A stretch of 64,000 nt of DNA, from the NCBI GenBank assembly GCA_951828385.1, contig OX639973.1:372001-436000 (forward strand), given 5' to 3'. Below the pieces are notes generated by a model that saw only the letters and a program-made list of their open reading frames with translations, did not search any database and was not told the origin of the DNA. This document shows, one piece after another, positions 3,268-16,060 of this stretch. Source of the DNA: an uncultured Poribacteria bacterium. GTDB lineage: Bacteria; Poribacteria; WGA-4E; WGA-3G. A program made the translations under genes and the position numbers. Positions within the stretch are counted from its first letter, which is position 1. Each line of letters starts with the position of its first letter.

Positions 3268-4080
3268 ATGAGAAACCTAAGTTGGTTCATACTAATTACA
3301 CTCGTAGTGACTGTTTACCTAACATCAGTCGCAAGTGCTGGTCTGAATGACGGTCTACTCATCTATTTGCCTTTTGATGACCGTTCAGGACAAGATGCTG
3401 CCGATGAGAGCGGAAACGGCAACGCTGCTAAACTTATTGAGGGTGCCAAATGGAAACCGAATGACGGTAAGATTGGCGGTGCTGTGGCACTTGATGGTGC
3501 AGGTGCTGCCGTTGAAGACGCGAAAGGTGGAGATTATATCAACGGACTTAAGGCTTTTACCATTTCTGTTTGGGTAAAGTCTGATTCAGTTGGACACGAC
3601 AGAGGTATTATCTTTGCTAAAGACCCTGCTGGCGGCGATGATGTGTTCGGGTTCCGTTACGATGCCGCAAGTTGGTCAACGCCAGGCGGTACGAATCTTA
3701 TCAAGGGCGCAATTACGACAACGGGCGGTGGTCAAGCGTATGAGGGTAAAAGCGATGTGCAAACGACTGAGTGGCAACACCTCGTTTTTACTTGGAAAAG
3801 TGGTGAACAACTGACCCTCTATATTGATGGCGAACTGGATGATGATCCTACACACAATGACGATGGTAAAGAGGGAGAAATCTCTGGTGCCACCAAATTA
3901 CTCATTGGTAAAGGAGCAAAGGATAATAACGGCACATCGTGGCCTGGACTCATAGACGACCTTCGCATCTATGATAGAGCACTGACCGAAGCAGAGATTG
4001 CGGAATTAGCAAGTGGTGTCCTCGCCGTCGAAGCGGACGGCAAGTTAGCAACAACCTGGGCAAACCTCAAACAGAGATAA
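3268..4080 (+). CDS. Secreted LamG/concanavalin A-like domain protein
   Basis: 270 residues with AGGAGG before the ATG. Residues 1-24 form a signal peptide: positive start, hydrophobic LITLVVTVYLTS, and a likely cleavage after ASA. The rest is one LamG-like jellyroll domain (LamGL / Laminin_G_3 type): LLIYLPFDDRSGQDAADESGNGN, then TISVWVKS, WQHLVFTWKSGEQLTLYIDGEL and LIGKGAKD, ending with IDDLRIYDRALTEAEI. Such domains bind glycans and are exported to the periplasm or cell surface. There is no catalytic domain. A short tail follows the domain. Its ligand is unknown; the neighbouring sugar genes fit a carbohydrate role but do not prove it. Confidence 0.88.
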   Translation: MRNLSWFILITLVVTVYLTSVASAGLNDGLLIYLPFDDRSGQDAADESGNGNAAKLIEGAKWKPNDGKIGGAVALDGAGAAVEDAKGGDYINGLKAFTISVWVKSDSVGHDRGIIFAKDPAGGDDVFGFRYDAASWSTPGGTNLIKGAITTTGGGQAYEGKSDVQTTEWQHLVFTWKSGEQLTLYIDGELDDDPTHNDDGKEGEISGATKLLIGKGAKDNNGTSWPGLIDDLRIYDRALTEAEIAELASGVLAVEADGKLATTWANLKQR

Positions 4081-4184: not shown

Positions 4185-4586
4185 ATGCAAACCTTCTATG
4201 AAAACCCTCCTGCAGGTGAGACATCGTTTCGGCACGCTATAAAACAAGAACTCGCGAGTCTCCATAAAGAAGTTAAGAACCTCTCGGTCGAAGATAGCGA
4301 ATTTTATCCCGCCCCGGAATTAGTCTACAATGATGCGCTCTTTCTTCTGGAGATGCTTCATCATTCCGGTATCCCGACACCAGACATCCGCTGGTCAGAA
4401 GACGACAGTCTGAATCTTACATGGCACCCTGAAGCGGGTGTAGCGACTTTAGAAATATACGGCAATGGGCTTGTCATCTATAACGCCTGTCTTGAAGATG
4501 AGCGTCCAGACGAAGTATCTTTCACCTTGACAGACACTATAAGTTTACAGGATTGCCTCGTAAAACTCAACCGCCTTTTTCGGTAA
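4185..4586 (+). CDS. Small conserved protein of unknown function, paralog 1 of 3 in the island
   Basis: About 133 residues from the ATG at 4185; an in-frame GTG at 4140 lies inside the palindrome above and is less likely. I do not recognise a named family. It is acidic, with a helical N-terminal half (ASLHKEVKNL) and a C-terminal half rich in beta strands. The block YNDALFLLEMLHHSGIPTPD, then W..D.S, then LEIYGNGLVIYNA is shared with the proteins at 10592 and 11733, so the three are paralogs. This copy sits 57 bases before hsdR, as the third copy sits just before hsdM. It might be an accessory or regulatory partner of the R-M genes, but that rests on position only. Confidence 0.7.
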   Translation: MQTFYENPPAGETSFRHAIKQELASLHKEVKNLSVEDSEFYPAPELVYNDALFLLEMLHHSGIPTPDIRWSEDDSLNLTWHPEAGVATLEIYGNGLVIYNACLEDERPDEVSFTLTDTISLQDCLVKLNRLFR

Positions 4587-4643
4587 CACTGTTATTTATG
4601 ACACGCCACGCTCAACGAAATTAGAAAGAAAATTCACCTTACT

Positions 4644-7055
4644 ATGCCCCCTGAACAGAGAGCCAGACGCAACATAGATAGTAAACTTGAAGCATCTGGC
4701 TGGCACATCCAAAATTATGCTGAAAGTGATACAGATGCTGCATTAGGTGTAGCTGTACGTGAGTATCGGTTGAGAGCAGATCAGCGGGCGGATTATCTCC
4801 TCTTTATCGGTGGCGTTGCAGTTGGGGTTATTGAAGCCAAACCAGAAGGAACGACGCTTAGTGGTGCCCTCCAACAGGCAGAACGGTATCGAGCAAGTTT
4901 ACCAGATGATTTGCCAAACCTTCCCAGATTTCCTTTTTCCTATGCATCAACGGGGGTTGAGACATACTTTCGGGATATTCGGGATCCTGATTCTCGTTCA
5001 CGGCAGATATTTACATTTCATACACCAGATTCTCTCTTGCGTCAAGGTAATGAGTTAACCACACTTCGCGAAAACCTCAAGGACGATTTACCAGCGTTAG
5101 GAAGAGGTTCGCTGAGAGATTGCCAATTTGAGGCGATAACCAATCTTGAAGAATCATTGGCAGAATCACACCAGCGTGCTTTAATCCAGATGGCAACCGG
5201 AAGCGGAAAGACCCATGCTGCCGTAAACAGCGTCTATCGTCTCATCAAATTTGGCAGAGTTAAACGCGTTCTTTTTCTGGTAGATCGCCGCAACCTGGGC
5301 AGACAAACTCTTAGCGAGTTTCAGTCTTACACGACTCCCGATGACGGTAGAAAATTCACGGACCTTTACAACGTTGAACATCTCTCCAGCAACGTTATCA
5401 ACGAAGCAAATTCGGTCTGCATTACAACCATTCAGCGTCTCTACTCCATGCTAAAAGGCGAAACTGACTATGAAAGAGATACTGAGGAGGTTTCTGCATT
5501 TGAAAATGAAGACAAACAAAAAGTAGAAGTTATCTATAATCCAAAAATCCCTATTGATACCTTTGACATTATCATCATAGATGAATGCCATCGCTCTATC
5601 TACGGCAAATGGAGGCAGGTACTCGAATACTTCGATGCATTCATTATCGGACTTACCGCAACACCCTATAGACAAACGCTCGCTTTTTTCGATCACAATC
5701 TCGTTTATGAATACCGCCACGAGCAAGCTATTGCGGATAATGTAAATGTCGGTTACTATGTCTATCGGATTAAAACTGAAATCACACAAAGCGGGAGTAG
5801 TCTCGAAGCAGGTAGTTATATCGCAAGACGCGATAGACAAAGTCGGCGACTTAACTGGGATGAATTGGATGCTGATGTTGAATATACAGAAAATCAGTTA
5901 GATCGCGATGTTGTTGCTATAAATCAAATCCGTACAGTCATCCAAACCTTCAAGGATAAACTTTTCACCGATCTCTTTCCAAGTAGGCAAACCGTTCCTA
6001 AAACACTTATCTTTGCGAAAGATGATTCTCACGCCGAAGATATTGTTCATATTGTGCGGGATGTATTTGCCAAAGGCGACGATTTCTGCCAAAAGATTAC
6101 CTATCAGAGCGATAAACCGGAGGAACTCATCAAAAGATTTCGCACACAATTAAATCCGCGAATCGCTGTCAGTGTTGACATGATTTCTACCGGCACAGAT
6201 ATAAAACCTCTTGAGTGTCTTCTCTTTATGCGTGCTGTCCGATCAAGTGGTTACTTTGAACAAATGATTGGACGCGGCGTGCGTACGATCAGTCCCGACG
6301 ATCTGAAAACTGTCACCGGCGATGCGACTACCAAAACGCATTTTTTCATCGTTGATGCTGTCGGTGTCTGCGAATCCGTAAAAACCGATTCACAATCACG
6401 CCCTGGAGAACCCCCCTCCACTGATCCAATTGAACCTTCAAAAAGAAATACTGGCCAACTAATTGATGATATTAGTGAAGATCACGTTCTTGATACTGGA
6501 CTTGAGACTCAAAGTTTCACACAAGTGGCTACAGTCATTCACGCCTTTAAACAGTTTATTGATCAAAACATAGACGAATTAACAGCGTTACAAATTTTGT
6601 GTAAACGTCCAGGGGCGCAAGGGACGTTGAACGAAAACAACTTGAAGGAACTGGAAGAAGCATTGCAGCAACATTCAAGTAGTCTGAGTCGCGAGTCATT
6701 ATGGTTGGTTTATAAAAACCGGTCTTCAGAGAGGGTTCAAGGAGGGACGGAACAACGTACTGACCTCATATCCCTCTTGCGATTTGCTATGGGGTATAAT
6801 CTTTTCCTGGAGCCATTTAGTGCAACTGTCAACCGAAATTTTGAAGAATGGTTAGATGGTAAAGATTTTAGCGTAGAGCAACGTGAATGGCTTGAGATGG
6901 TACGCGATCATATTGCCACCTCGCTTGATATTCAGATGTCTGATTTTGAATTAGCTCCCTTTGCTGAACTCGGAAACGGCGCGAAAGTTTACGAACTCTT
7001 CGGTGATGCGTTAGACAACATGCTAACGGATCTCACAAAAAAATTGGTCTCTTAA
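4644..7055 (+). CDS. hsdR: Type I restriction endonuclease, R (translocase/nuclease) subunit
   Basis: 803 residues. HsdR joins HsdM and HsdS to cut unmodified foreign DNA after ATP-driven translocation. The N-terminal PD-(D/E)XK nuclease shows D50 and the pair E64-x-K66 in VGVIEAKPEG. Helicase motifs follow in order: Walker A MATGSGKT at 183-190, DECH at 313-316, GLTATP at 336-341, a motif V-like SVDMISTGTDI near 510-520 and motif VI QMIGRGVR at 540-547. The length and motif order fit the EcoEI-like HsdR group, and the gene appears intact. Its partners are hsdS at 7615 and hsdM at 12164 on the same strand. The order R-S-M with several inserted small genes is unusual. Confidence 0.93.
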   Translation: MPPEQRARRNIDSKLEASGWHIQNYAESDTDAALGVAVREYRLRADQRADYLLFIGGVAVGVIEAKPEGTTLSGALQQAERYRASLPDDLPNLPRFPFSYASTGVETYFRDIRDPDSRSRQIFTFHTPDSLLRQGNELTTLRENLKDDLPALGRGSLRDCQFEAITNLEESLAESHQRALIQMATGSGKTHAAVNSVYRLIKFGRVKRVLFLVDRRNLGRQTLSEFQSYTTPDDGRKFTDLYNVEHLSSNVINEANSVCITTIQRLYSMLKGETDYERDTEEVSAFENEDKQKVEVIYNPKIPIDTFDIIIIDECHRSIYGKWRQVLEYFDAFIIGLTATPYRQTLAFFDHNLVYEYRHEQAIADNVNVGYYVYRIKTEITQSGSSLEAGSYIARRDRQSRRLNWDELDADVEYTENQLDRDVVAINQIRTVIQTFKDKLFTDLFPSRQTVPKTLIFAKDDSHAEDIVHIVRDVFAKGDDFCQKITYQSDKPEELIKRFRTQLNPRIAVSVDMISTGTDIKPLECLLFMRAVRSSGYFEQMIGRGVRTISPDDLKTVTGDATTKTHFFIVDAVGVCESVKTDSQSRPGEPPSTDPIEPSKRNTGQLIDDISEDHVLDTGLETQSFTQVATVIHAFKQFIDQNIDELTALQILCKRPGAQGTLNENNLKELEEALQQHSSSLSRESLWLVYKNRSSERVQGGTEQRTDLISLLRFAMGYNLFLEPFSATVNRNFEEWLDGKDFSVEQREWLEMVRDHIATSLDIQMSDFELAPFAELGNGAKVYELFGDALDNMLTDLTKKLVS

Positions 7056-7079
7056 TATCACCGCTGCAGGAGTGACTCT

Positions 7080-7168
7080 GGTCGCGATTAAAGCGCAGAA
7101 CTATTGTAGCATAACCTGTTAGGTTGTGTATTGTAGAAGCAACCCCCGGTCGCGATTAAGAGGGTTGC
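7080..7168. repeat. Short direct repeat and hairpin after hsdR
   Basis: The 12-mer GGTCGCGATTAA occurs at 7080-7091 and again at 7148-7159. The second copy lies in the loop of an imperfect stem formed by GCAACCC (7139-7145) and GGGTTGC (7162-7168). No gene is seen between 7056 and 7273. The hairpin could end hsdR transcription but has no T tract. Confidence 0.45.
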
Positions 7169-7303
7169 ATCTCAAGTCAGCTTTGTGTTAAACTTTATAA
7201 TGATTTTCCGCCAAAGGTCTTATGATTTGCTCCGATTTTAAAATAGGACAATACGCTAAAGAGGTATCCGTAAATGCCAAACCCAAAAAAGTAATCGGAA
7301 TCA

Positions 7304-7594
7304 TTGACTCGGAAGATCACTGAATGGATGCGTTTTATGAAAGATGAACGCGGTGAACCTTTGGTACGCGCTTTAAGTGAGGGTACAAGGAAGATGCGTC
7401 AAGAAATGGAAAACCTCAGTCTATCGGCACCCAATCATGAAACGGCTCAACGGACCAGCGTCACACTCTATAATCACTTTGAAGAGCGATTGGCACCACA
7501 CGCAGCGTATACCACTACATTTAAGCCCGAAATACCGCCTGAACAAGGCAGCGTAAAAAAAAACACTGCGTTCCATCGACGAGCGTCTCGCTAA
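7304..7594 (+). CDS. Small helical protein, probably frame-disrupted at both ends
   Basis: The open frame gives 96 residues from a TTG at 7304. The family is not recognised. Much of it is helical and charged (EWMRFMKDERGEPLVRAL and MRQEMENL). Two oddities suggest the native gene is 7274-7604. First, an ATG at 7274 behind AGAGG is separated from this frame only by a TAA at 7292-7294. Second, the frame crosses a run of nine A residues at 7555-7563. With eight A residues it would end TLRSIDERLAKIE and stop at 7604, in a charged helix like the rest and ten bases before the hsdS start. This may be a mutation, transcriptional slippage or an assembly error. Position between hsdR and hsdS suggests it belongs to the R-M operon. 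Confidence 0.5.
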   Translation: MTRKITEWMRFMKDERGEPLVRALSEGTRKMRQEMENLSLSAPNHETAQRTSVTLYNHFEERLAPHAAYTTTFKPEIPPEQGSVKKNTAFHRRASR

Positions 7595-7614
7595 AATCGA
7601 ATAAAAAGGAACAG

Positions 7615-9030
7615 ATGAGTAAAATGAATCCAATGGATTTGCCTCTGAATTGGCGGATCGTCAGATTTGCGGAGGTAACTACGTTTACCAAGAAACCAAA
7701 AGGCTTACGATATTCAGAGTATAACGAAGTCCCGTTTGTGCCGATGAATTTGATTCCAATTGCCAAGTTATATTCTAAGGAATTTAACCTCAAATCAACT
7801 GATGAACTCAGCAGCGGAACTTACTTTGAACCCGGGGATATTCTTCTGGCAAAAATTACACCGTCTTTTGAAAACGGTAAACAGTGTATTATTCAAGAAT
7901 TGCCAACGCCATTTGGTATTGCGACGACTGAAGTAATTCCAATTCGTGAAGTTAAAGGTGTCAGTGACAAATTTTATCTTTTCTATTATTTGTTAGTTCC
8001 TGACATCCGCGCTTTGCTTGCGGCAAGAATGAAAGGAACAACCGGAAGACTGCGATTAGGGACAGAAGCACTTGCCAACTTGGAAGTCCCGCTTCCGCCG
8101 CTGGCAGAACAACGCCGTATCGTAGCGAAGTTAGAGGTGCTGTTTACACAATTAGATGCAGCCGTTGATAGCCTCAAAAAAGCACAAGTGCAGTTGCATC
8201 GGTATCGTCAATCAATCCTCAAAGCTGCGTTTGACGGTGAATTGACAAGAGAGGGGAACAAAGGACATTCAGACACTTGGGAACGTATGAAACTGAGTGA
8301 ATTCATCACGCTTGAGAGTGGTTCGCGCCCAAAGGGCGGAGTCCGGGGTATTCTTGAAGGAGTACCGAGTCTCGGCGGCGAACATTTAAATAACGAAGGT
8401 AGTTTTAGGTTTAAAAAAATAAAATATGTTCCCGAAGATTTTTTTAAATCACTAAATAAAGGGAAGATTTATCCAAATGATATTATCGTTGTGAAAGATG
8501 GCGCAACAACAGGAAAAACAAGTTTTGTTGATAACAATTTTCCACATAAAGATGCTGCAGTTAATGAACATCTGTTTATTGTACGGGTAAATCCAAAGGT
8601 TGCTTTTCCAAAATTCGTGTTTTATCATCTCTTTAGCAGCAAAGGGCAGCAACAGATTCTCTCAGATTTTCGCGGGGCTACTGTTGGTGGGATTTCTCGT
8701 CGTTTTCCATTAAAGGTTGATATTCCAATTCCACCACTTCCTAAGCAAGAACAAATCGTTTCTGAACTTGAGCGGCACCTTTCAGTCGCTGATAAGGCAG
8801 AGGTAACTATTGATGCCGAACTTAAACGCGCGGAACGTTTGCAGCAGTCTATTCTCAAGCAGGCGTTCTCTGGTAAACTTGTGCCACAAGACCCGAACGA
8901 TGAACCGGCAAGTATCTTGTTAGAGAAAATCCGAGACGAGAAAGAACATCAACAATCCAAACGAAAGAAGACTACACCCAAATCGAAAACAACCGTTTCA
9001 GCAAAACAGATGTTGCTTCCACTCAACTAA
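7615..9030 (+). CDS. hsdS: Type I restriction enzyme specificity subunit
   Basis: 471 residues starting ATG behind AAAAGGAACAG. HsdS selects the DNA target for the type I complex. Two target recognition domains are visible: about residues 9-155 (ending with the typical LANLEVPLPPLAEQRRIVAKLE) and about 222-370 (ending with DIPIPPLPKQEQIVSELE). Each is followed by a long helix, the conserved spacer regions (AVDSLKKAQVQLHRYRQSIL near 190 and ELKRAERLQQSILKQAFSGKL near 400), the standard two-half layout. A lysine-rich tail follows. It lies with hsdR and hsdM on the + strand and is followed 12 bases later by two small antitoxin-like genes. It appears intact. Confidence 0.92.
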   Translation: MSKMNPMDLPLNWRIVRFAEVTTFTKKPKGLRYSEYNEVPFVPMNLIPIAKLYSKEFNLKSTDELSSGTYFEPGDILLAKITPSFENGKQCIIQELPTPFGIATTEVIPIREVKGVSDKFYLFYYLLVPDIRALLAARMKGTTGRLRLGTEALANLEVPLPPLAEQRRIVAKLEVLFTQLDAAVDSLKKAQVQLHRYRQSILKAAFDGELTREGNKGHSDTWERMKLSEFITLESGSRPKGGVRGILEGVPSLGGEHLNNEGSFRFKKIKYVPEDFFKSLNKGKIYPNDIIVVKDGATTGKTSFVDNNFPHKDAAVNEHLFIVRVNPKVAFPKFVFYHLFSSKGQQQILSDFRGATVGGISRRFPLKVDIPIPPLPKQEQIVSELERHLSVADKAEVTIDAELKRAERLQQSILKQAFSGKLVPQDPNDEPASILLEKIRDEKEHQQSKRKKTTPKSKTTVSAKQMLLPLN

Positions 9031-9042
9031 GGAATTATTATT

Positions 9043-9339
9043 ATGACGCAAGATGAAATACAAGACAACACGGATGAATCCGAGGAAACACAAGAGACCG
9101 ATCCGCTTCTTGCATTGGTAGGAACATTGCAATGGGACGTGGCAGAAATAAAAAAGCAACTCCGGGCCTCTAAGCGACCAGAGATACGTGTGGTTGAAGG
9201 AGCATACAAAGACCATCCGGATCCGCTCATTGCTTTAGCAGGGACGTTGGAATGTGATGTAACTGACATCGGTGAACGCCACGACGACTATATTGCAGCC
9301 GCTTTGTTGGCAGAATTATGGGGAGATGAGGATGAATAA
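9043..9339 (+). CDS. Small acidic protein with an internal duplication, antitoxin-tail-like
   Basis: 98 residues, very acidic, 12 bases after hsdS. It contains the same motif twice: DPLLALVGTLQWDVAEI (about 20-36) and DPLIALAGTLECDVTDI (about 61-77), the second followed by GERHDDYIAAAL. A D-P-hydrophobic stretch ending in D(V/L)TD..E.HD.Y is common at the C-terminus of small bacterial antitoxins, so an antitoxin or immunity-type role is possible. No DNA-binding N-terminal domain is seen. It is 14 bases from a UPF0175 gene, and the two could be one unit. No cognate toxin is recognised next to it. Function is unproven. Confidence 0.6.
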   Translation: MTQDEIQDNTDESEETQETDPLLALVGTLQWDVAEIKKQLRASKRPEIRVVEGAYKDHPDPLIALAGTLECDVTDIGERHDDYIAAALLAELWGDEDE

Positions 9340-9353
9340 CATGAGGTGAGTTT

Positions 9354-9644
9354 GTGACAAAAACAGAACTTGAAATCCGTTTTATATTACCGCTTGATGA
9401 GGTTTTACTGGAACACAAAGTTGACGCGGTGCACAAAGCGAGAGAGGCTTTTGTGCTTGAATTTTTACGTCAAGGTGACATCAGTGCTGGTAGAGCAGCA
9501 CGACTTCTCAACATTTCGCGGTGGGATCTCTCGGAATTGATGTATGAAGCAGGAATTTCCCCTTTTGACGATAGCATCACAGCAGAAACGTTAGATGCTG
9601 AAGCCAAAAGTGCATTGAAGGATTTTGATGTGTTAAATCACTAA
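9354..9644 (+). CDS. UPF0175 family protein, antitoxin-like
   Basis: 96 residues from a GTG at 9354. The core FVLEFLRQGDISAGRAARLL, then NISRWDLSELMYEAGISPFD, is the UPF0175 signature, a small helix-turn-helix-like fold often found beside PIN-domain toxins. No PIN gene follows here; the next gene is the TIGR04255-type cassette, 132 bases away behind its own promoter. The UPF0175 protein at 40666, in contrast, does have a PIN partner. This one may be an orphan antitoxin or the partner of the small acidic protein before it. Confidence 0.8.
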   Translation: MTKTELEIRFILPLDEVLLEHKVDAVHKAREAFVLEFLRQGDISAGRAARLLNISRWDLSELMYEAGISPFDDSITAETLDAEAKSALKDFDVLNH

Positions 9645-9699
9645 GATTGTTATAAACCGTCAAACTGCTTATTTGCAAGCACTATAGTTGAAATCGATA

Positions 9700-9728
9700 T
9701 TGCATCGGATGAAAATCTATGCTATAAT
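9700..9728 (+). promoter_or_regulatory. Sigma-70-type promoter for the TIGR04255 cassette
   Basis: TTGCAT (9700-9705), a 17-base spacer, and a perfect TATAAT (9723-9728) that also has the extended TG two bases upstream. The ATG at 9777 lies 49 bases further on, behind a TAGGTAGGA ribosome site. This is the clearest promoter in the window and shows that the downstream cassette can be expressed independently of the hsd genes. Confidence 0.7.
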
Positions 9729-9776
9729 ATACATAAGAGTAGTAAATTAATATTAAACTCTGATAGGTAGGACATT

Positions 9777-10592
9777 ATGGATGCCCAAAAAAATGAACTT
9801 AATTTTGCGCGGCCACCAGTAGACGAGGTTGTGTTAAGTGTTCTTTTTCAGTCTCTTGATGGCTTACTTGCACCACATCTTGGGCAAATCTGGCAGGAAT
9901 TTAGGGAAGATGGGTTTGTGAGCATTGAGGAGCAATCTCCGGTTAGTCCTATAGTGGAGGAATTTCCAAGTCGAATTCATGAACCTCAGTTGCAACTACG
10001 TCGTGCCCCTGATCTCGCTCGAATATGGTTTACCCATGAAGATAAAAGCCAAATCTTACAAGTGCAACGCGACCGATTCACATTTAACTGGCGTAAAACC
10101 GACCCGAATCAGCAATATCCAGGGTTCACCTCCATTTGCGAAAAATTTGAAAGTTTCTACAACCGTTTCTGCCAAATTATAAAAGACATGAAAATTGGTG
10201 AAGTAACCCCGCTGCAGTATGAGTTAACCTACATTGATCAGCTCAAGCAAGGAGATGGTTGGGATAGGCTTGATGAAATTGGGGAAATATATAATATGTT
10301 TGTTGATTGCCAACAGTCTGAGTCGTTTTGGTTAGGAGCCGAGTCTTTAATTTTGAGTACCTCATTTACGCTTGAAGATTTGCATGGTAGGTTGCATCTC
10401 ACTATAAGAAATCGTGTAAAGATGCCTGAAGAAAGTCAAACACTACAAACTGATTTCACGATGCGCGGTTTTCCAGAAAACGCTAACTACACAATGATAG
10501 ATTGGTTTAAGGCAGCTCGTGAGCAAATTCGGGAAAAATTCGTTTCTCTCTTTACAGAAAACATCCAAACACAAATATGGGGACGTAAATAA
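9777..10592 (+). CDS. TIGR04255 family protein
   Basis: 271 residues. The N-terminal FARPPVDEVVLSVLFQSLDG, followed by HLGQIWQEFREDGF, is the opening typical of the TIGR04255 family, a sporadically distributed family of unknown function that turns up in accessory regions of distant bacteria. The middle (PLQYELTYIDQL) and the C-terminal beta-rich half (DLHGRLHLTIRNRV) also fit. No catalytic motif, signal peptide or membrane segment is seen. It has a strong promoter of its own, and its stop codon overlaps the next ATG by one base, so it is translationally coupled to the gene at 10592. A defence or conflict role is plausible from its place inside an R-M island but is not demonstrated. Confidence 0.82.
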   Translation: MDAQKNELNFARPPVDEVVLSVLFQSLDGLLAPHLGQIWQEFREDGFVSIEEQSPVSPIVEEFPSRIHEPQLQLRRAPDLARIWFTHEDKSQILQVQRDRFTFNWRKTDPNQQYPGFTSICEKFESFYNRFCQIIKDMKIGEVTPLQYELTYIDQLKQGDGWDRLDEIGEIYNMFVDCQQSESFWLGAESLILSTSFTLEDLHGRLHLTIRNRVKMPEESQTLQTDFTMRGFPENANYTMIDWFKAAREQIREKFVSLFTENIQTQIWGRK

Positions 10593-11155
10593 TGATAAAA
10601 TCAAGGAGATATCTCCTACATCGTGAGGATCTTCAAAACGAAATGGAGTCAGATTTTATGGCTACCCCTAATGTTTCACGCTCAACTCCATATTATCCGG
10701 TTTTGCAAACCCAAGATTATAGGACTTTAAGAGCATCTGATGAAATAATGACGAATCCATTTTCTGTGGCAGATCTTGACTTCTCTTGGTTAACTGAGGC
10801 AAAACAACAATTAAAAGAAGTCTACCAAGAGGTTATGGATGCATGTACATTGGATAGCGAAATTGATCCTGTTCCAAGTGCCGCTTATTACGATGCGTTT
10901 TGGCTGCTGAAACTCCTTGATTATTATAATGTCCCTATGCCTGATATTGGTTGGTTGATAGATGGCGGTATTGGGTTTGAGTGGCGTTCAACGGATGGTA
11001 AAGGGATAGGTACGATGAGCATATATGGTAACAATCAAGTCGTTTATGGAGCCTCTTTAAGAAGCAACCCTAAAACCAAAGGAACTTGCGGATTAACTGA
11101 TTTAGTCCTACTAGTTCACTTCTTTCCAATGTTAAAGACCTTATGCTCTCAATAA
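10592..11155 (+). CDS. Unknown protein coupled to TIGR04255, paralog 2 of 3
   Basis: 187 residues from the ATG that overlaps the preceding stop (TAATG). Shorter starts at internal ATGs are possible. The first about 65 residues are a polar extension. From about residue 70 it matches the small proteins at 4185 and 11733: helix EAKQQLKEVYQEV, then SEIDPVPSAAYYDAFWLL, then PMPDIGW and TMSIYGNNQVVYGA. The domain has no name I can give. The N-terminal extension is unique to this copy and may be the part that contacts the TIGR04255 protein; this is inference. It is followed 10 bases later by the third gene of the cassette. Confidence 0.75.
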   Translation: MIKSRRYLLHREDLQNEMESDFMATPNVSRSTPYYPVLQTQDYRTLRASDEIMTNPFSVADLDFSWLTEAKQQLKEVYQEVMDACTLDSEIDPVPSAAYYDAFWLLKLLDYYNVPMPDIGWLIDGGIGFEWRSTDGKGIGTMSIYGNNQVVYGASLRSNPKTKGTCGLTDLVLLVHFFPMLKTLCSQ

Positions 11156-11165
11156 AGGACTTGGT

Positions 11166-11558
11166 ATGAACGTTCCGCCAGATGAAAAGTTGACTCGGTT
11201 CATTTCTTCTAAAAGTGGTTTTTCCATTGCTAAGAAAGTGGTCAGTTATAGGGCATTTATCCCACCGAGAAAGAGCCCACAGGAACTTTCTGTGTATCGT
11301 ATTTCTACCCTAACTGAAAATGAGATTTGGGAAATTGGAAAAGAATATGTTCAAGGGGAAAATGAAATAAAAGCGAGGGCAGATTTTTTGGCTAAGGTTG
11401 TTTATGAAAATAACCTTATTGTAATTGCAGACACACAAATTCATGAACTACATGCGAATATCAGCCCTCTACCAATGGACAGGGAGGATAGGGACGAAAT
11501 CCTAAGAGAACTCGCTCTTGCTAGCGAGCTAGTAATCAGCCCGTCAGAAGAGACCTAA
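11166..11558 (+). CDS. Third gene of the TIGR04255 cassette, small protein of unknown function
   Basis: 130 residues, ATG at 11166, 10 bases after the previous gene and probably in the same transcript. It begins with a proline- and charge-rich segment (PPDEKLTRFISSKSGFS), then SVYRISTLTENEIWEIGKEY, and a segment ending HELHANISPLP before a helical tail. There are no transmembrane segments and no catalytic motif I can name. The small size and last position resemble the small partner in other TIGR04255 neighbourhoods as I recall them, but this has not been checked by search. Function unknown. Confidence 0.72.
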   Translation: MNVPPDEKLTRFISSKSGFSIAKKVVSYRAFIPPRKSPQELSVYRISTLTENEIWEIGKEYVQGENEIKARADFLAKVVYENNLIVIADTQIHELHANISPLPMDREDRDEILRELALASELVISPSEET

Positions 11559-11588
11559 TTTCAGACTAAACCCAATTAAAGAATATCC

Positions 11589-11660
11589 ATTTCAAACGAA
11601 TCCACAACGATTGTCCAGAAACTCTGGAATTTCCGCAATACTCTCCAAGATGAGGTATTG
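11589..11660 (+). pseudogene. Fossil of an hsdM 5' end
   Basis: This stretch closely resembles the first about 24 codons of the real hsdM at 12164. Read in frame it gives SNESTTIVQKLWNF against SNESATIVQKLWNF in the intact gene, but the start ATG is ATT and the similarity fades after about 70 bases. Most differences are silent, so it was once coding. It shows that an hsdM once started directly after the TIGR04255 cassette, and that the small paralog at 11733 plus the present hsdM came in downstream or that the start was duplicated. Confidence 0.75.
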
Positions 11661-11732
11661 CGTTTCGTGAAAATCTGTGCCAAAATCAGAGCACGTTAGG
11701 GAACTATCTCACAGTCGTATAGGTAACACACT

Positions 11733-12149
11733 ATGGAAACCTTACAAACTGAAATTGAACCTACTGCTTGTTCAACAGACAAAGGGCTGCTTCGGAAACA
11801 GGTGCAACGTGAATTAGACGAAATCCGACAAGAAGCCGAGGCAGCTTATGCCTTGGATAAAGAGATTGACCCAATCCCAGATTCAGCATATAATGATACA
11901 CTTGTTTTGTTAGAGATACTTTGTAATTACAAGCTGCCCATGCCAGAAGTCAGTTGGGCAGAGGATGGCAGCTTTAGCATCGGATGGTATTTGGATGAAG
12001 GTATTATAACGATGGGTATTTATGGAGACGATCTTGTTATCTATAATGCCTTCTTTGAAGAAAAACGTCAATTTGAAGGCATCTGTGCACTATCAGATAC
12101 GCCAATGTTGTCAGGTTTCCTCAAAATATTGATTCCAATCCTTAACTAA
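11733..12149 (+). CDS. Small conserved protein of unknown function, paralog 3 of 3
   Basis: 138 residues from the ATG at 11733. It contains the helix QVQRELDEIRQEAEAAYALD, then EIDPIPDSAYNDTLVLLEIL, then PMPEVSW and TMGIYGDDLVIYNAF, aligning along its length with the proteins at 4185 and 10592. Residues shared by all three (DP or Y-P, Y.D, LL, P.P(D/E), IYG, V.Y.A) mark one domain of about 100 residues. It ends 14 bases before the hsdM ATG, so it is probably co-transcribed with hsdM. It lies just after the hsdM 5' fossil, which points to insertion or recombination here. No function is known. Confidence 0.73.
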   Translation: METLQTEIEPTACSTDKGLLRKQVQRELDEIRQEAEAAYALDKEIDPIPDSAYNDTLVLLEILCNYKLPMPEVSWAEDGSFSIGWYLDEGIITMGIYGDDLVIYNAFFEEKRQFEGICALSDTPMLSGFLKILIPILN

Positions 12150-12163
12150 ATTGAGATAAATTC

Positions 12164-13630
12164 ATGTCAAACGAATCCGCAACAATTGTCCAGAAGCTTT
12201 GGAATTTCTGTAACGTCCTCCGAGACGACGGGGTCAGTTACGGAGATTACGTCGAACAACTTACGTATCTACTGTTCCTTAAACTCGCTGACGAACAGAC
12301 GAAACCACCCTTCAACAAACCTTCAACAATCCCTTTAGGTTTGGATTGGACGAGTCTCCTTGAAGAGAGTGGTGCTGACTTAGAAACGCAGTACGTTAAA
12401 ATCTTGCGAGAACTGAGTAAGGCGGAAGGCTTACTCGGTGTAATCTTCAGAAAATCACAGAATCGTATTCAGACCCCCGCGAGTCTGAAACGTCTTATCC
12501 ACCTCATCAACGATGAGAACTGGAGTGGAATGACTGCCGACATCAAAGGCACTATCTACGAAGGACTTCTACAGAAAAACGCCGAAGACACCAAAAGCGG
12601 AGCCGGTCAATATTTCACACCACGTCCACTTATCAAGGCAATGGTTAACGTGATGCGTCCCGAACCGATGCAAACTATCTGCGATCCTGCGTGCGGTACC
12701 GGTGGTTTCTTTCTTGCAGCACACGACTATATTTCCGAAAATTACGGTAGTACGATGACCCGCGAACAGAAGGAATTCCTTAGATTTAGCACCTTTGCTG
12801 GCACAGACATCGTTGATAACGTCGTTCGCCTCTGTGTGATGAATCTATACTTACATGGTATCGGTGGCACCGAGAGCCCAATTACAACCGATGATAGCCT
12901 TAGCCAAGACACGGGGACCCGCTATGATATGGTGCTTACCAATCCGCCCTTTGGGAACAGGAGTAGCATTACAATCGCTACTAATGATGGTAAACGCAGC
13001 AATACATCGCTTACTTATGAACGCGATGATTTCTGGGCGACTACTTCAAATAAGCAGTTCAATTTCCTCCAACACATCAAGACGATTCTGAAAACGGATG
13101 GACGCGCCGCTGTCGTTCTTCCAGATAATGTCCTCTTTGAACGCGGTTCCGGTGAGATGATTCGCCAGCAGCTGCTCAATCAGTTTGATGTCCATACCCT
13201 CTTGCGATTACCAACCGGTATCTTCTACGCCCAAGGCGTAAAGGCGAATGTGCTCTTTTTCGACAAGCGTCCTGCGCGTGAAGAACCGTGGACTCAGAAA
13301 CTCTGGATATACGACCTGCGAACGAACAAAAGCTTTACGCTTAAGACAAATCCACTACACGATACCGACCTGCAAGATTTTATCAACGTCTACAATCCAG
13401 ACAATCGCGAAGCGCGAGTTGAAACTGAGCGATTTCGCGCCTACAGTTATGAAGAGCTCATCGAACGAGAGCATATCAACCTTGACATTTTCTCGCTAAA
13501 AGATAAGTCGCTTGAGGATGCAGCAGACCTTCCCACCCCAGACGTATTAGTAGCGGAAATCACAGAGAATTTAGAGGCGGCATTAGCACAATTTCAGAAC
13601 ATCCAAACAGAGTTAGACAAGAACGACTAA
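12164..13630 (+). CDS. hsdM: Type I restriction-modification DNA methyltransferase subunit
   Basis: 488 residues. HsdM transfers a methyl group from S-adenosylmethionine to N6 of adenine at the site chosen by HsdS, protecting host DNA. An N-terminal helical HsdM_N domain (residues about 7-140) precedes the class I methyltransferase. SAM-binding motif I is DPACGTGGF at 174-182 and the catalytic motif IV is NPPF at 260-263. The C-terminal helix near 450-488 would contact HsdS. The gene appears complete. It is separated from hsdS by about 3.1 kb of inserted small genes. It stops immediately before the ATG of the nucleotidyltransferase fusion gene with no gap. Confidence 0.95.
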   Translation: MSNESATIVQKLWNFCNVLRDDGVSYGDYVEQLTYLLFLKLADEQTKPPFNKPSTIPLGLDWTSLLEESGADLETQYVKILRELSKAEGLLGVIFRKSQNRIQTPASLKRLIHLINDENWSGMTADIKGTIYEGLLQKNAEDTKSGAGQYFTPRPLIKAMVNVMRPEPMQTICDPACGTGGFFLAAHDYISENYGSTMTREQKEFLRFSTFAGTDIVDNVVRLCVMNLYLHGIGGTESPITTDDSLSQDTGTRYDMVLTNPPFGNRSSITIATNDGKRSNTSLTYERDDFWATTSNKQFNFLQHIKTILKTDGRAAVVLPDNVLFERGSGEMIRQQLLNQFDVHTLLRLPTGIFYAQGVKANVLFFDKRPAREEPWTQKLWIYDLRTNKSFTLKTNPLHDTDLQDFINVYNPDNREARVETERFRAYSYEELIEREHINLDIFSLKDKSLEDAADLPTPDVLVAEITENLEAALAQFQNIQTELDKND

Positions 13631-16060
13631 ATGAAAACACACCTCCTTGAAAACCTACTCGGTTCCGAATTAGAAGAGACGCTCATAGCAATCTCCGCGG
13701 ATGCAGACACATTTGAAACGTTCCTCGCCACACTCCCGACAGATTCCGTCGAAAACCACCTTACACCGCAATGGGTCGTACTTGCGGCTGGTAAAGGCAC
13801 GCGGATTGATCCTACCGGACGCTTGAGCAAAACGTTGGACATCACCTTCGGGGAACAGAACACGCTCCAACACTCGCGGCGTTACCTACCCGGCAACCGT
13901 CCGGACATCGTTGTGATCAACCCACAGATGGCATCGCGTATTGAGAACAGTGAATCTGCGGCGCAATTGCTCGGTCCCGATGCGATACCTTGTATCCAAG
14001 CAGAGATGAACGGCACGGGAGGCGCGCTGCAAGCCGCACTCCCCGCACTTCAAGACTCCGACGCTGAATGGATTGGGGTGGCGTTCGGTGATGAACCGTT
14101 TTTGGAACGCGCTATTTTTGCACAGACACTGCTCTCACATTTTCTCTCCGGTGCGGATGTTACGCTCTGCGGCAAAACCCCTGAAACTGTTGAGGATAAG
14201 GGCGGACTTTTCTTCGACGCTGAAGGAAAACTCACGGGGACCAAAGAGTGGTACGATATGACAGCAGCCGAAAAACAGGAGATGTGGGACCGATGGCACA
14301 ATGGTGAAGCCTACACCAACACAGGTATCACACTCATTCGGAAAAGTGCGTTGTTAGATCGGATACATCGGTTGGAACCGCATGCAAATCGGAACGATGA
14401 ACTCCATCACGTCGATCTCATCCGACACTGTTATAGAGATGGGCTGAAAACAAACGCCTTTATCTATCGTGGTAATGTGTTGTCTGGCGTGAACCGCTGG
14501 TCGAATGTTTTATCCGGTGAAGCGGCACTGTATGCACAGATACGGGAATCTCTCACGCGAAAAGGCGTTCGCATCGATCCCGCTGCACAGATAACATTGG
14601 GCGGTGATGACATTGAAATCGGCACGGCGTGCTATCTTATCGGTAGCGTGCATCTCGGCGAAAAGGTTCGGATCGGAGATTATTGCAGGCTTGAAAACGT
14701 TACGTTGCTTGGTGCGACAACAGTCGGTGATGCGGTTGGATTAGAAGGTGTTTCTGCGGAGGATACCGTATTTGAAGCAAACCCGATCCCGGAAACATTG
14801 GCGGCACCCGTGCGGGGCCTCGCGACTAAAAGTACAATCAAAAATTGCACGTTTGACGTGACGAGCGTCGGGAGTAGCGTTCAACTTTCGGGAGTTGTCG
14901 CGCATGGAACAGTGATTCCGTCCGGTATCGTTTTGACGGATCGGACACTCGGTGTCCCACCAGCACAAGTCCCGCCTGCCGTGCCGAAGTCGTTATTTGA
15001 TCAGATTGTGCCTTCGGATTATAGCCCAGGTGTTTTTACCTTTGGAGAAAAGCGAGAATTACCGGATTGGGAAAACCTCCGACGACACGTGCAATCGCAT
15101 AGTGCTGCAGAACTCATTCCGCGTGCGACGCACGATCCGCAGTTACAACAGACGACCTGCGACGCGGTCCAGACCCTCTTGGACCTGCGACGCGCAAATT
15201 CGGATTATCTGATTGAATCGCTCACACCAGAAGAACTATGGGGAAGCATCTTTGAGTTGGTAACGCTTCATACCGGCAATCCGAACCCATATCATCACGA
15301 TAAACTGAAAGCGCGGCAGACGGCACTCGACCTACTGCCAGAGTTTTGGGATAATCATTGGCTGACGCGTCTGAAATTGGTTGTCGCTGGGAATATCATC
15401 GACTACAGCAGCGAGCGGGTTGTAAAAAAATTGAAAGCGAATCCTGACTATTTCTCTGAAGCACTCCGCGCGGCGGTCGAAACGCCTTTCAGTATCAACT
15501 GTTACGAAGCCTTCATCGAAAAGGTGATTGAAGGGACACCGCAGCAGATTCTCTGGCTCGCGGATAACGACGGAGAGGTGATATTTGACATCGTCTTCAT
15601 TCAGGAACTCGTCGCGTCTGGACACCACATCTCCCTTGTTGGCAAAGCAGACAACGCCAGCAACGACGCGACTGTGGCAGACCTGCACGCAATTGTCAAC
15701 TACCCGCAATTTCAGGAACTTCAGGCAGCCATTCGGGACGGTACGCTCCGGTTGCTATCATCAGGTGCAATAACAATCGGGACCAATCTCTATCAGGCGA
15801 CACCGGAATTCATCAACGCGCTGTCAGCAGCAGATCTTGTTATTTCAAAAGGACAGGGGAATTTCTATACCACACCCGGATGGGGGAAGGATACTTTCTA
15901 TCTTCTACTCTCTAAAGGTTTAACAGCTGAACGGAGTACAGGTGTTATTGCAGATCGGAATCTACCGATTGATGGCATGATTTTGGCTTACGTGCCAGCA
16001 GGCACAAGACGGGACGCGCCTTTGTTGGATATTTGTCGGGAATGGACGACGGAAAACTAA
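13631..16060 (+). CDS. Nucleotidyltransferase/left-handed beta helix/DUF89 fusion protein
   Basis: 809 residues. Three parts are visible. Residues about 45-310 are a sugar-nucleotidyltransferase-like domain with WVVLAAGKGTRI as the nucleotide-binding motif and MNGTGGALQAAL further on. Residues about 330-455 have the short isoleucine-valine-glycine periodicity of a left-handed beta helix (VRIGDYCRLENVTLLGATTV), as in GlmU-type enzymes. Residues about 500-809 are a DUF89/ARMT1-type domain: VVAGNIID, the metal site LADNDGEVIFD, and SKGQGNFYT. DUF89 proteins are metal-dependent phosphatases acting on damaged or overproduced phospho-metabolites. Making a sugar nucleotide and removing a harmful sugar phosphate in one chain is a plausible reading. 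The gene abuts hsdM and overlaps the converging PaaK-like gene by four bases. Confidence 0.85.
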   Translation: MKTHLLENLLGSELEETLIAISADADTFETFLATLPTDSVENHLTPQWVVLAAGKGTRIDPTGRLSKTLDITFGEQNTLQHSRRYLPGNRPDIVVINPQMASRIENSESAAQLLGPDAIPCIQAEMNGTGGALQAALPALQDSDAEWIGVAFGDEPFLERAIFAQTLLSHFLSGADVTLCGKTPETVEDKGGLFFDAEGKLTGTKEWYDMTAAEKQEMWDRWHNGEAYTNTGITLIRKSALLDRIHRLEPHANRNDELHHVDLIRHCYRDGLKTNAFIYRGNVLSGVNRWSNVLSGEAALYAQIRESLTRKGVRIDPAAQITLGGDDIEIGTACYLIGSVHLGEKVRIGDYCRLENVTLLGATTVGDAVGLEGVSAEDTVFEANPIPETLAAPVRGLATKSTIKNCTFDVTSVGSSVQLSGVVAHGTVIPSGIVLTDRTLGVPPAQVPPAVPKSLFDQIVPSDYSPGVFTFGEKRELPDWENLRRHVQSHSAAELIPRATHDPQLQQTTCDAVQTLLDLRRANSDYLIESLTPEELWGSIFELVTLHTGNPNPYHHDKLKARQTALDLLPEFWDNHWLTRLKLVVAGNIIDYSSERVVKKLKANPDYFSEALRAAVETPFSINCYEAFIEKVIEGTPQQILWLADNDGEVIFDIVFIQELVASGHHISLVGKADNASNDATVADLHAIVNYPQFQELQAAIRDGTLRLLSSGAITIGTNLYQATPEFINALSAADLVISKGQGNFYTTPGWGKDTFYLLLSKGLTAERSTGVIADRNLPIDGMILAYVPAGTRRDAPLLDICREWTTEN

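Follow-up and report, generated by a model that had tools for sequence, protein, structure and literature searches.

Three copies of a small domain in a type I restriction island

The DNA analysed here, referred to as the window, is a stretch of 64,000 nucleotides from an uncultured Poribacteria bacterium with a genome of 6.66 Mb (contig OX639973.1, positions 372,001 to 436,000). It carries a type I restriction-modification (R-M) island in which hsdR, hsdS and hsdM are accompanied by three copies of a small domain (SD1, SD2 and SD3), a gene for a TIGR04255 family protein and a short gene, M32B (Table 1). The distance from SD1 to hsdR is 57 bp and that from SD3 to hsdM 14 bp; TIGR04255 and SD2 overlap by one base, the stop codon of the former ending on the first base of the latter. 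The original prediction, made from the sequence alone, had described the three SDs as paralogs adjoining hsdR, TIGR04255 and hsdM. The open reading frames (ORFs) are as described and all on the plus strand, and Pfam and NCBIfam bear out the hsdR, hsdS, hsdM and TIGR04255 assignments.

The relatedness of the copies was assessed by BLASTP in single comparisons, which gave 85 bits for SD1/SD3 (38% over 104 amino acids, E 4e-27), 87 bits for SD2/SD3 (38% over 113 amino acids, E 4e-27) and 73.6 bits for SD1/SD2 (36% over 104 amino acids, E 5e-22) and thereby ruled out a chance resemblance. The proposed shared motif was recovered as well: 30 columns are invariant in the three-sequence alignment, including Y48, D50, L54, L55, P64, P66, W70, I91, Y92, G93, V97, Y99 and A101. 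The claim that the copies are no product of chance is supported. So is a recurrent position next to hsd genes: by our own reading, an hsd gene or fragment is present in 40 of 55 SD-holding stretches (see below). With a profile built from the three SDs, only SD1, SD2 and SD3 matched at E<=1 in the whole genome, and none of them gave a credible match to a Pfam or NCBIfam family. The original prediction did not list M32B, which directly follows SD2. It is M32B, not the hsd genes, that is the steady partner of SD.

Table 1. Genes and remnants of the island, in positions of the window.
Feature	Position	Strand	Evidence
SD1, orphan copy of the small domain	4185..4586 (ORF start 4140/4185)	+	ORF list, BLASTP, alignment
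hsdR, type I restriction subunit	4644..7055	+	Pfam ResIII 132 bits, EcoEI_R_C 115 bits
hsdS	7615..9030	+	Pfam Methylase_S 81.7 bits
TIGR04255 protein, first cassette gene	9777..10592	+	NCBIfam TIGR04255 63.9 bits, above the curated cut-off of 30
SD2, cassette copy with N-terminal extension, proposed antitoxin	10592..11155	+	alignment, BLASTP, stop/start overlap
M32B, 130 aa, predicted ADP-ribosyltransferase fold, proposed toxin	11166..11558	+	PADLOC PDC-M32B weak (E 0.03), AF2, VIA
Remnant of hsdM 5' end, before SD3	11587..11660	+	aligns with hsdM start, 12161-12235
SD3, orphan copy, own M32B deleted	11733..12149	+	alignment with L044
hsdM	12164..13630	+	Pfam N6_Mtase 229.6 bits

SD and M32B are inherited together and decay asymmetrically

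The three-SD profile matched 47 of 97 relative genomes. Altogether 61 stretches (relatives and the window) were mapped, and SD was present in 55 of them. The fetched loci yielded 83 SD genes for classification, a single open frame being scored as intact irrespective of start codons. An intact SD was found with an intact M32B in 33 cases, without M32B in 33, and with a broken M32B in six; one broken SD stood beside a broken M32B and six broken SDs had no M32B. The remaining genes lay at contig ends, where two intact SDs had a cut M32B and two SDs were themselves cut. Each of the 46 M32B profile pieces in these loci was preceded by an SD in the same orientation, the spacing being usually 10-22 nt. 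A search starting from M32B matters here, because the loci had been chosen by SD; it yielded 49 matches in 39 of the 97 genomes, 46 of which were inside the fetched loci. The three others were in G087, where an SD-like gene directly upstream was recognised by a weak PDC-M32A match, in G014, where the upstream SD matched weakly (14 bits) and overlapped M32B by one base, and in G002, where the upstream DNA was cut by the contig end. SD and M32B are thus an adjacent, co-oriented pair, as toxin-antitoxin genes are, and M32B was never seen without SD where the upstream DNA was visible.

In the mapped stretches TIGR04255-SD-M32B recurs as a three-gene cassette. The hsd genes are a looser neighbour: by our own reading, no hsd gene or fragment is present in 15 of the 55 SD-holding stretches (some contigs are short), and at the same site the cassette occurs without any hsd gene in L068/L105. 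Four SDs, SD3 among them, lie directly before hsdM; immediately upstream of several other hsdM genes no SD is present. SD1-type genes stand directly before hsdR in eight mapped loci including the window, at 55-61 bp in seven of the eight. In L048, L058 and L067 the place of TIGR04255 upstream of SD-M32B is taken by a protein starting MTLIVS.R.PDGIVIA.DS, which we take to resemble a proteasome-type N-terminal hydrolase (Thr after Met, Asp 17 from Thr, a conserved Lys). Such proteasome-like proteins near SD genes (L117:1244-1993, L067:6433-7224, L048:1151-1909 and L072:10120-10917) gave no database match. TIGR04255 also heads a second kind of cassette, followed by a protein of ~150 residues and one carrying SQSCDL or a similar motif; this arrangement was seen at four loci (L139:5471-7308, L143, L144 and L145), two of which adjoin large HsdM-like proteins. 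TIGR04255 may serve several effectors.

A search of named genomes with the M32B protein returned 23 loci, 20 of them from Candidatus Poribacteria, several isolates of which come from sponges; the others extended the range to Latescibacterota, Planctomycetota and Alphaproteobacteria, where TIGR04255-SD-M32B was present in every case. Because this search began from M32B, SD alone was used to search an independent sample of 343 Planctomycetota and 385 alphaproteobacterial genomes, of which 10 and 4, respectively, had a match. Setting aside two genomes already known, 14 independent loci were considered. The gene after SD matched an M32B profile in 13 (two of these at only 13 bits, to the profile of the distant branch described below) and no M32B profile in L164. 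TIGR04255 lay directly before SD in 11, ten above the NCBIfam cut-off and L167 by our own profile, and DNA methylase or restriction genes adjoined SD in three (L169, L171 and L174). From these counts the domain is rare and tied to M32B and TIGR04255, and to R-M genes only sometimes. Of the links that the original prediction proposed to look for with a profile search, the one with TIGR04255 stands, and the one with hsd genes is recurrent within the phylum, R-M genes being infrequent neighbours outside it.

The genome of the window contains a further, distant SD/partner pair at genome position 1,781,466, 1.4 Mb away (L097:9466-10354), which neither TIGR04255 nor hsd genes adjoin. Similar pairs were present in all six further relatives' loci examined, L101 among the distant pairs having TIGR04255 and hsdS nearby. 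Profile comparison with this second, larger branch gave E 8e-6 (probability 84) for SD and E 5e-5 (probability 67) for M32B, so kinship with the distant branch is likely for SD and tentative for M32B. No relatives were found in viral contigs, and none in plasmids or phages by single-sequence tblastn (E 0.001-0.01); these tests are insensitive. The PDC-M32B model PDLC04579 gave 0 matches in the 385 alphaproteobacterial genomes, which is uninformative since no positive control matched.

The distances among SDs and among their M32Bs were correlated over the 33 intact pairs (r 0.77, a value not reached in any of 2000 permutations). Where the stretch also included a complete hsdM (20 pairs), r was 0.70 for SD/M32B, −0.01 for SD/HsdM and 0.08 for M32B/HsdM, from which it follows that SD-M32B pairs move as units, independent of the adjoining hsdM. 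Decay of the pairs is asymmetric. The six broken M32Bs beside an intact SD represent six separate events on the SD tree, and no intact M32B with a broken SD was found among the 83 classified SD genes; together with the deletion in the window described below, M32B was lost and SD kept in seven of seven cases (sign test, p 0.016). SD was broken in 6 of the 39 cases without M32B and in none of the 33 with an intact M32B (Fisher, p 0.028). The ratio of non-synonymous to synonymous substitution (dN/dS; Nei-Gojobori medians, pairs with dS 0.05-1.2) was 0.24 for the SD1 type, 0.27 for other SDs without M32B and 0.26 for paired SDs, compared to 0.30 for M32B, 0.16 for TIGR04255 and 0.06 for the HsdM control. 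Orphan SDs are under purifying selection.

The two orphan copies of the window have different histories. In L044 (genome G029; L104 is the same contig) an SD3 ortholog of 92% identity is followed by M32B and then hsdM. The window departs from SD3 at ...AAAATATTGA and goes on as TTCCAATCCTTAACT..., a sequence that in relatives sits beyond the M32B stop. The whole M32B after SD3 is deleted in the window, apparently across a short TTGA repeat; the junction is near 12128-12135, and the C-terminal end of SD3 is new. The remnant of ~70 bp of the hsdM start that precedes SD3 suggests that recombination placed an SD3-M32B-hsdM unit downstream of an older hsdM copy. SD1 belongs to a clade of 16 rows (support 100/99) that has no M32B or other partner gene and occupies one and the same site in two genera, whether or not hsdR is present; hsdR is missing at the sites of L050, L078 and L085.

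Other genes of the island were noted. The ORF at 7304-7594, between hsdR and hsdS, is probably all that is left of a former gene, because the matching proteins at the same place in relatives are far longer (304-495 or ~1110 amino acids). Two more antitoxin-like genes, with no toxin alongside, lie at 9043-9336 and 9354-9641. One of the two encodes a repeat protein, which in L106 belongs to a larger protein, with a PIN-domain gene next downstream; the other encodes a UPF0175 protein (PADLOC: PDC-S70). In many relatives the island is flanked, as in the window, by a LamG-domain gene (3268-4080) and a gene for a protein of ~807 amino acids (13631-16060) that by our own reading resembles a nucleotidyltransferase. 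As these flanks recur and the hsd content between them is varied or absent, the site is a conserved integration hot spot.

Predicted structures and known systems

The AF2 model of M32B had a pLDDT of 93.7. In a second look with VIA the best 24 matches were all folds of the ADP-ribosyltransferase (ART) superfamily (Z 8.2 to 3.3), headed by Tpt1/KptA (Z 8.2, 2.6 Å, 91 residues aligned) and including AvrPphF, Tne2, DarT, RES and Arr; unrelated folds had Z values of 2.5 and lower. The model thus points to an ART-like fold and, with it, a putative ART-like enzyme class. Among 41 M32B sequences, conservation is 95% for R11 and 100% for both S42 and H96; the three residues lie on separate strands of the model (8-13, 41-45 and 96-100). 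We take these to be the places of the three active-site positions of the superfamily, with His where Glu is usual; the usual sets are of the R-S-E or H-Y-E type.

The AF2 model of SD3 (mean pLDDT 86) has two helices, five strands and one helix. Its top row in the Foldseek search of the PDB was TreTu/TriTu, a pair of toxin and immunity protein (E 0.15, prob 0.69), and in VIA the match to TriTu had a Z of 6.9 over 77 of 87 residues. TriTu was given weight only because it was also Foldseek's first row and is the partner of an ART toxin. By sequence no credible solved relative of SD was found (8 chains, E 0.26-0.93); M32B, the distant M32B branch and the proteasome-like gene returned no solved chain at E<=1. 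The best SD match in the viral structure library was an uncharacterised Pithovirus protein (E 0.003). The antitoxin DarG is a macrodomain, and as far as seen here SD differs from it; macrodomains were not among the fold matches listed for SD by VIA, an absence that proves nothing.

The nearest catalogued system is PDC-M32, a PADLOC candidate listed without mechanism. It is likewise an adjacent pair, and similarity to the C-terminal third of the PDC-M32A models is seen in SD1, in the SDs of L124, L107 and L130 and in further SDs (E 1e-5 to 8e-3), although the N-terminal ~250 residues of the models are unmatched: SD1 covers positions 284-367 of 375, weakly (E 0.001). M32B matches PDC-M32B weakly as well (E 0.007-0.05; 0.03 and 0.045 for the window, 0.007 for L107). 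A fusion of TIGR04255 and SD as the origin of the 375-residue PDC-M32A was rejected, and its unmatched part is not TIGR04255, because TIGR04255 proteins (64 and 150 bits) fail to match the models. Since the matches are weak, the SD-M32B pair appears to be no closer to PDC-M32 than a remote branch or a sister group. A PADLOC-based study reports PDC-M32 in Sinorhizobium prophages (PMC12429752).

CmdTAC is a defence by mRNA ADP-ribosylation with three genes: an ART toxin, an antitoxin and a SecB-like third helper. Its three-part layout is like that of TIGR04255-SD-M32B and suggests, by analogy, a comparable role for TIGR04255. DarTG2, in E. coli, is an ART toxin-antitoxin pair embedded within a type I R-M island (PMC12255303), the arrangement that we propose for SD-M32B; it differs in that its toxin is of another subfamily and that it lies between hsdS and hsdR, whereas SD-M32B is mostly before hsdM. 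PrrC in EcoprrI is likewise an effector embedded in a type I operon, which it guards by stopping growth, but is an anticodon nuclease (PMC12707154) and not, as predicted for M32B, an ART fold. TreTu is an ADP-ribosyltransferase (PMC10469887) and forms with TriTu a pair of an ART toxin and a small immunity protein, to which SD bears a weak structural resemblance; TreTu is a secreted Rhs toxin, and no sequence similarity was found.

A proposed toxin-antitoxin module and its alternatives

The gene order, the dependence of M32B on SD, the loss of M32B with SD kept, the co-variation and the ART-like fold together lead us to the reading that SD is probably the antitoxin or immunity half of a pair of which M32B is the ART-like toxin, with TIGR04255 as sensor or chaperone and SD1 and SD3 as orphan antitoxins. 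The module would consist of SD followed by M32B, often with a TIGR04255 gene ahead. M32B would be a small ART-fold enzyme with an unusual R-S-H residue set, kept inactive by SD; freed from SD, it would modify its target or consume NAD, and growth would stop. The TIGR04255 protein, translated just before SD, could be an infection sensor or a stabiliser of SD. The module would be mobile and, often nested beside hsdM in a type I operon, would form a second, abortive line of defence. SD3 would be the leftover of the M32B deletion and SD1 an old copy retained without toxin, and both may still neutralise incoming relatives. A defence role appears likely, because the nesting by hsdM resembles that of DarTG2 (PMC12255303) and PrrC (PMC12707154).

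Several observations weigh against this assignment. Intact SDs without any M32B amount to 33 of the 83, and SD must therefore act, or be tolerated, alone; the requirement of M32B for SD would suit any obligate complex. M32B departs from the R-S-E and H-Y-E sets at H96, where Glu is usual. The ART signal comes from VIA only, at a Z of ~8 that the tool grades as middling; Foldseek returned nothing at E<=0.001 for the M32B and SD models and listed unrelated proteins as the top M32B rows, and Pfam, NCBIfam and solved-chain sequence searches gave no link between M32B and ARTs. In the VIA comparison of SD, Med17 of Mediator (Z 8.3) exceeded TriTu, and Fbxo7 (6.8) and T4 MotA (6.7) came close; moreover, chain C of 7zhm was taken as the immunity protein from its length of 87 residues.

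SD could also be an adaptor that couples a TIGR04255 sensor to the M32B effector, the latter being inactive until both are present and triggered. The order TIGR04255-SD-partner in 10 of the 14 independent loci (11 when the unrecognised gene of L164 is counted) and the absence of M32B without SD would fit such an arrangement. We nevertheless consider it unlikely, given that M32B breaks beside an intact SD, that purifying selection on SDs persists without TIGR04255 or M32B, and that pairs exist without an adjoining TIGR04255 gene, such as the second pair of the window's genome. A DNA-binding regulator of the operon, as many antitoxins are, is quite unlikely for SD, or at least for SD1: the constant spacing of SD1-type genes before hsdR and a weak fold match to the DNA-binding domain of T4 MotA speak for it, but MotA is one among several tied weak matches and genes of the SD1 clade persist where hsdR is absent.

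The original prediction had favoured an accessory or adaptor role, taken here as one in the type I enzyme. SD as a part of the R-M enzyme was rejected on account of the neighbours in the independent loci and the absent co-variation with HsdM. An accessory role is very improbable in spite of the eight SD1-type genes before hsdR, the four SDs before hsdM and the hsd genes or fragments in most SD-holding stretches. In the same 20 loci SD co-varies with M32B and not with HsdM, and there are several hsdM genes that lack an SD immediately upstream; the cassette can stand at this site where hsd genes are missing and, outside the phylum, stands mostly apart from R-M genes. Finally, the six broken genes among the 39 SDs without M32B might indicate that orphan SDs are functionless, decaying leftovers; their dN/dS, similar to that of paired SDs, and the spread of the SD1 clade over two genera make this hardly credible.

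Extending the toxin-antitoxin reading, one may speculate, with reserve, that TIGR04255-SD-M32B makes up an abortive defence system of three parts, spanning phyla and not described before, in which a new branch of ARTs with an R-S-H active site is held by SD and released by a TIGR04255 sensor. In Poribacteria, repeated insertion and toxin loss at hsdM would then have filled the operon with orphan antitoxins that immunise the cell against incoming copies and may make the toxin dependent on the state of the type I enzyme. As far as our literature searches reach, the preprint defining the PDC candidates being outside their scope, the antitoxin reading, the ART assignment, the link with TIGR04255 and the orphan copies are not in print; in the literature searched, PDC-M32 was named in one paper and TIGR04255 in none. 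Overall, the uncharacterised defence candidate PDC-M32 would gain a testable mechanism and TIGR04255 a role. The DNA of the window would record the loss of a toxin gene, with its antitoxin kept, inside a restriction operon, the paired and orphan copies would offer a natural set of antitoxins for the study of anti-addiction, and the island may be one more case, comparable to that of DarTG2, of a type I operon that harbours an ADP-ribosylating toxin pair.

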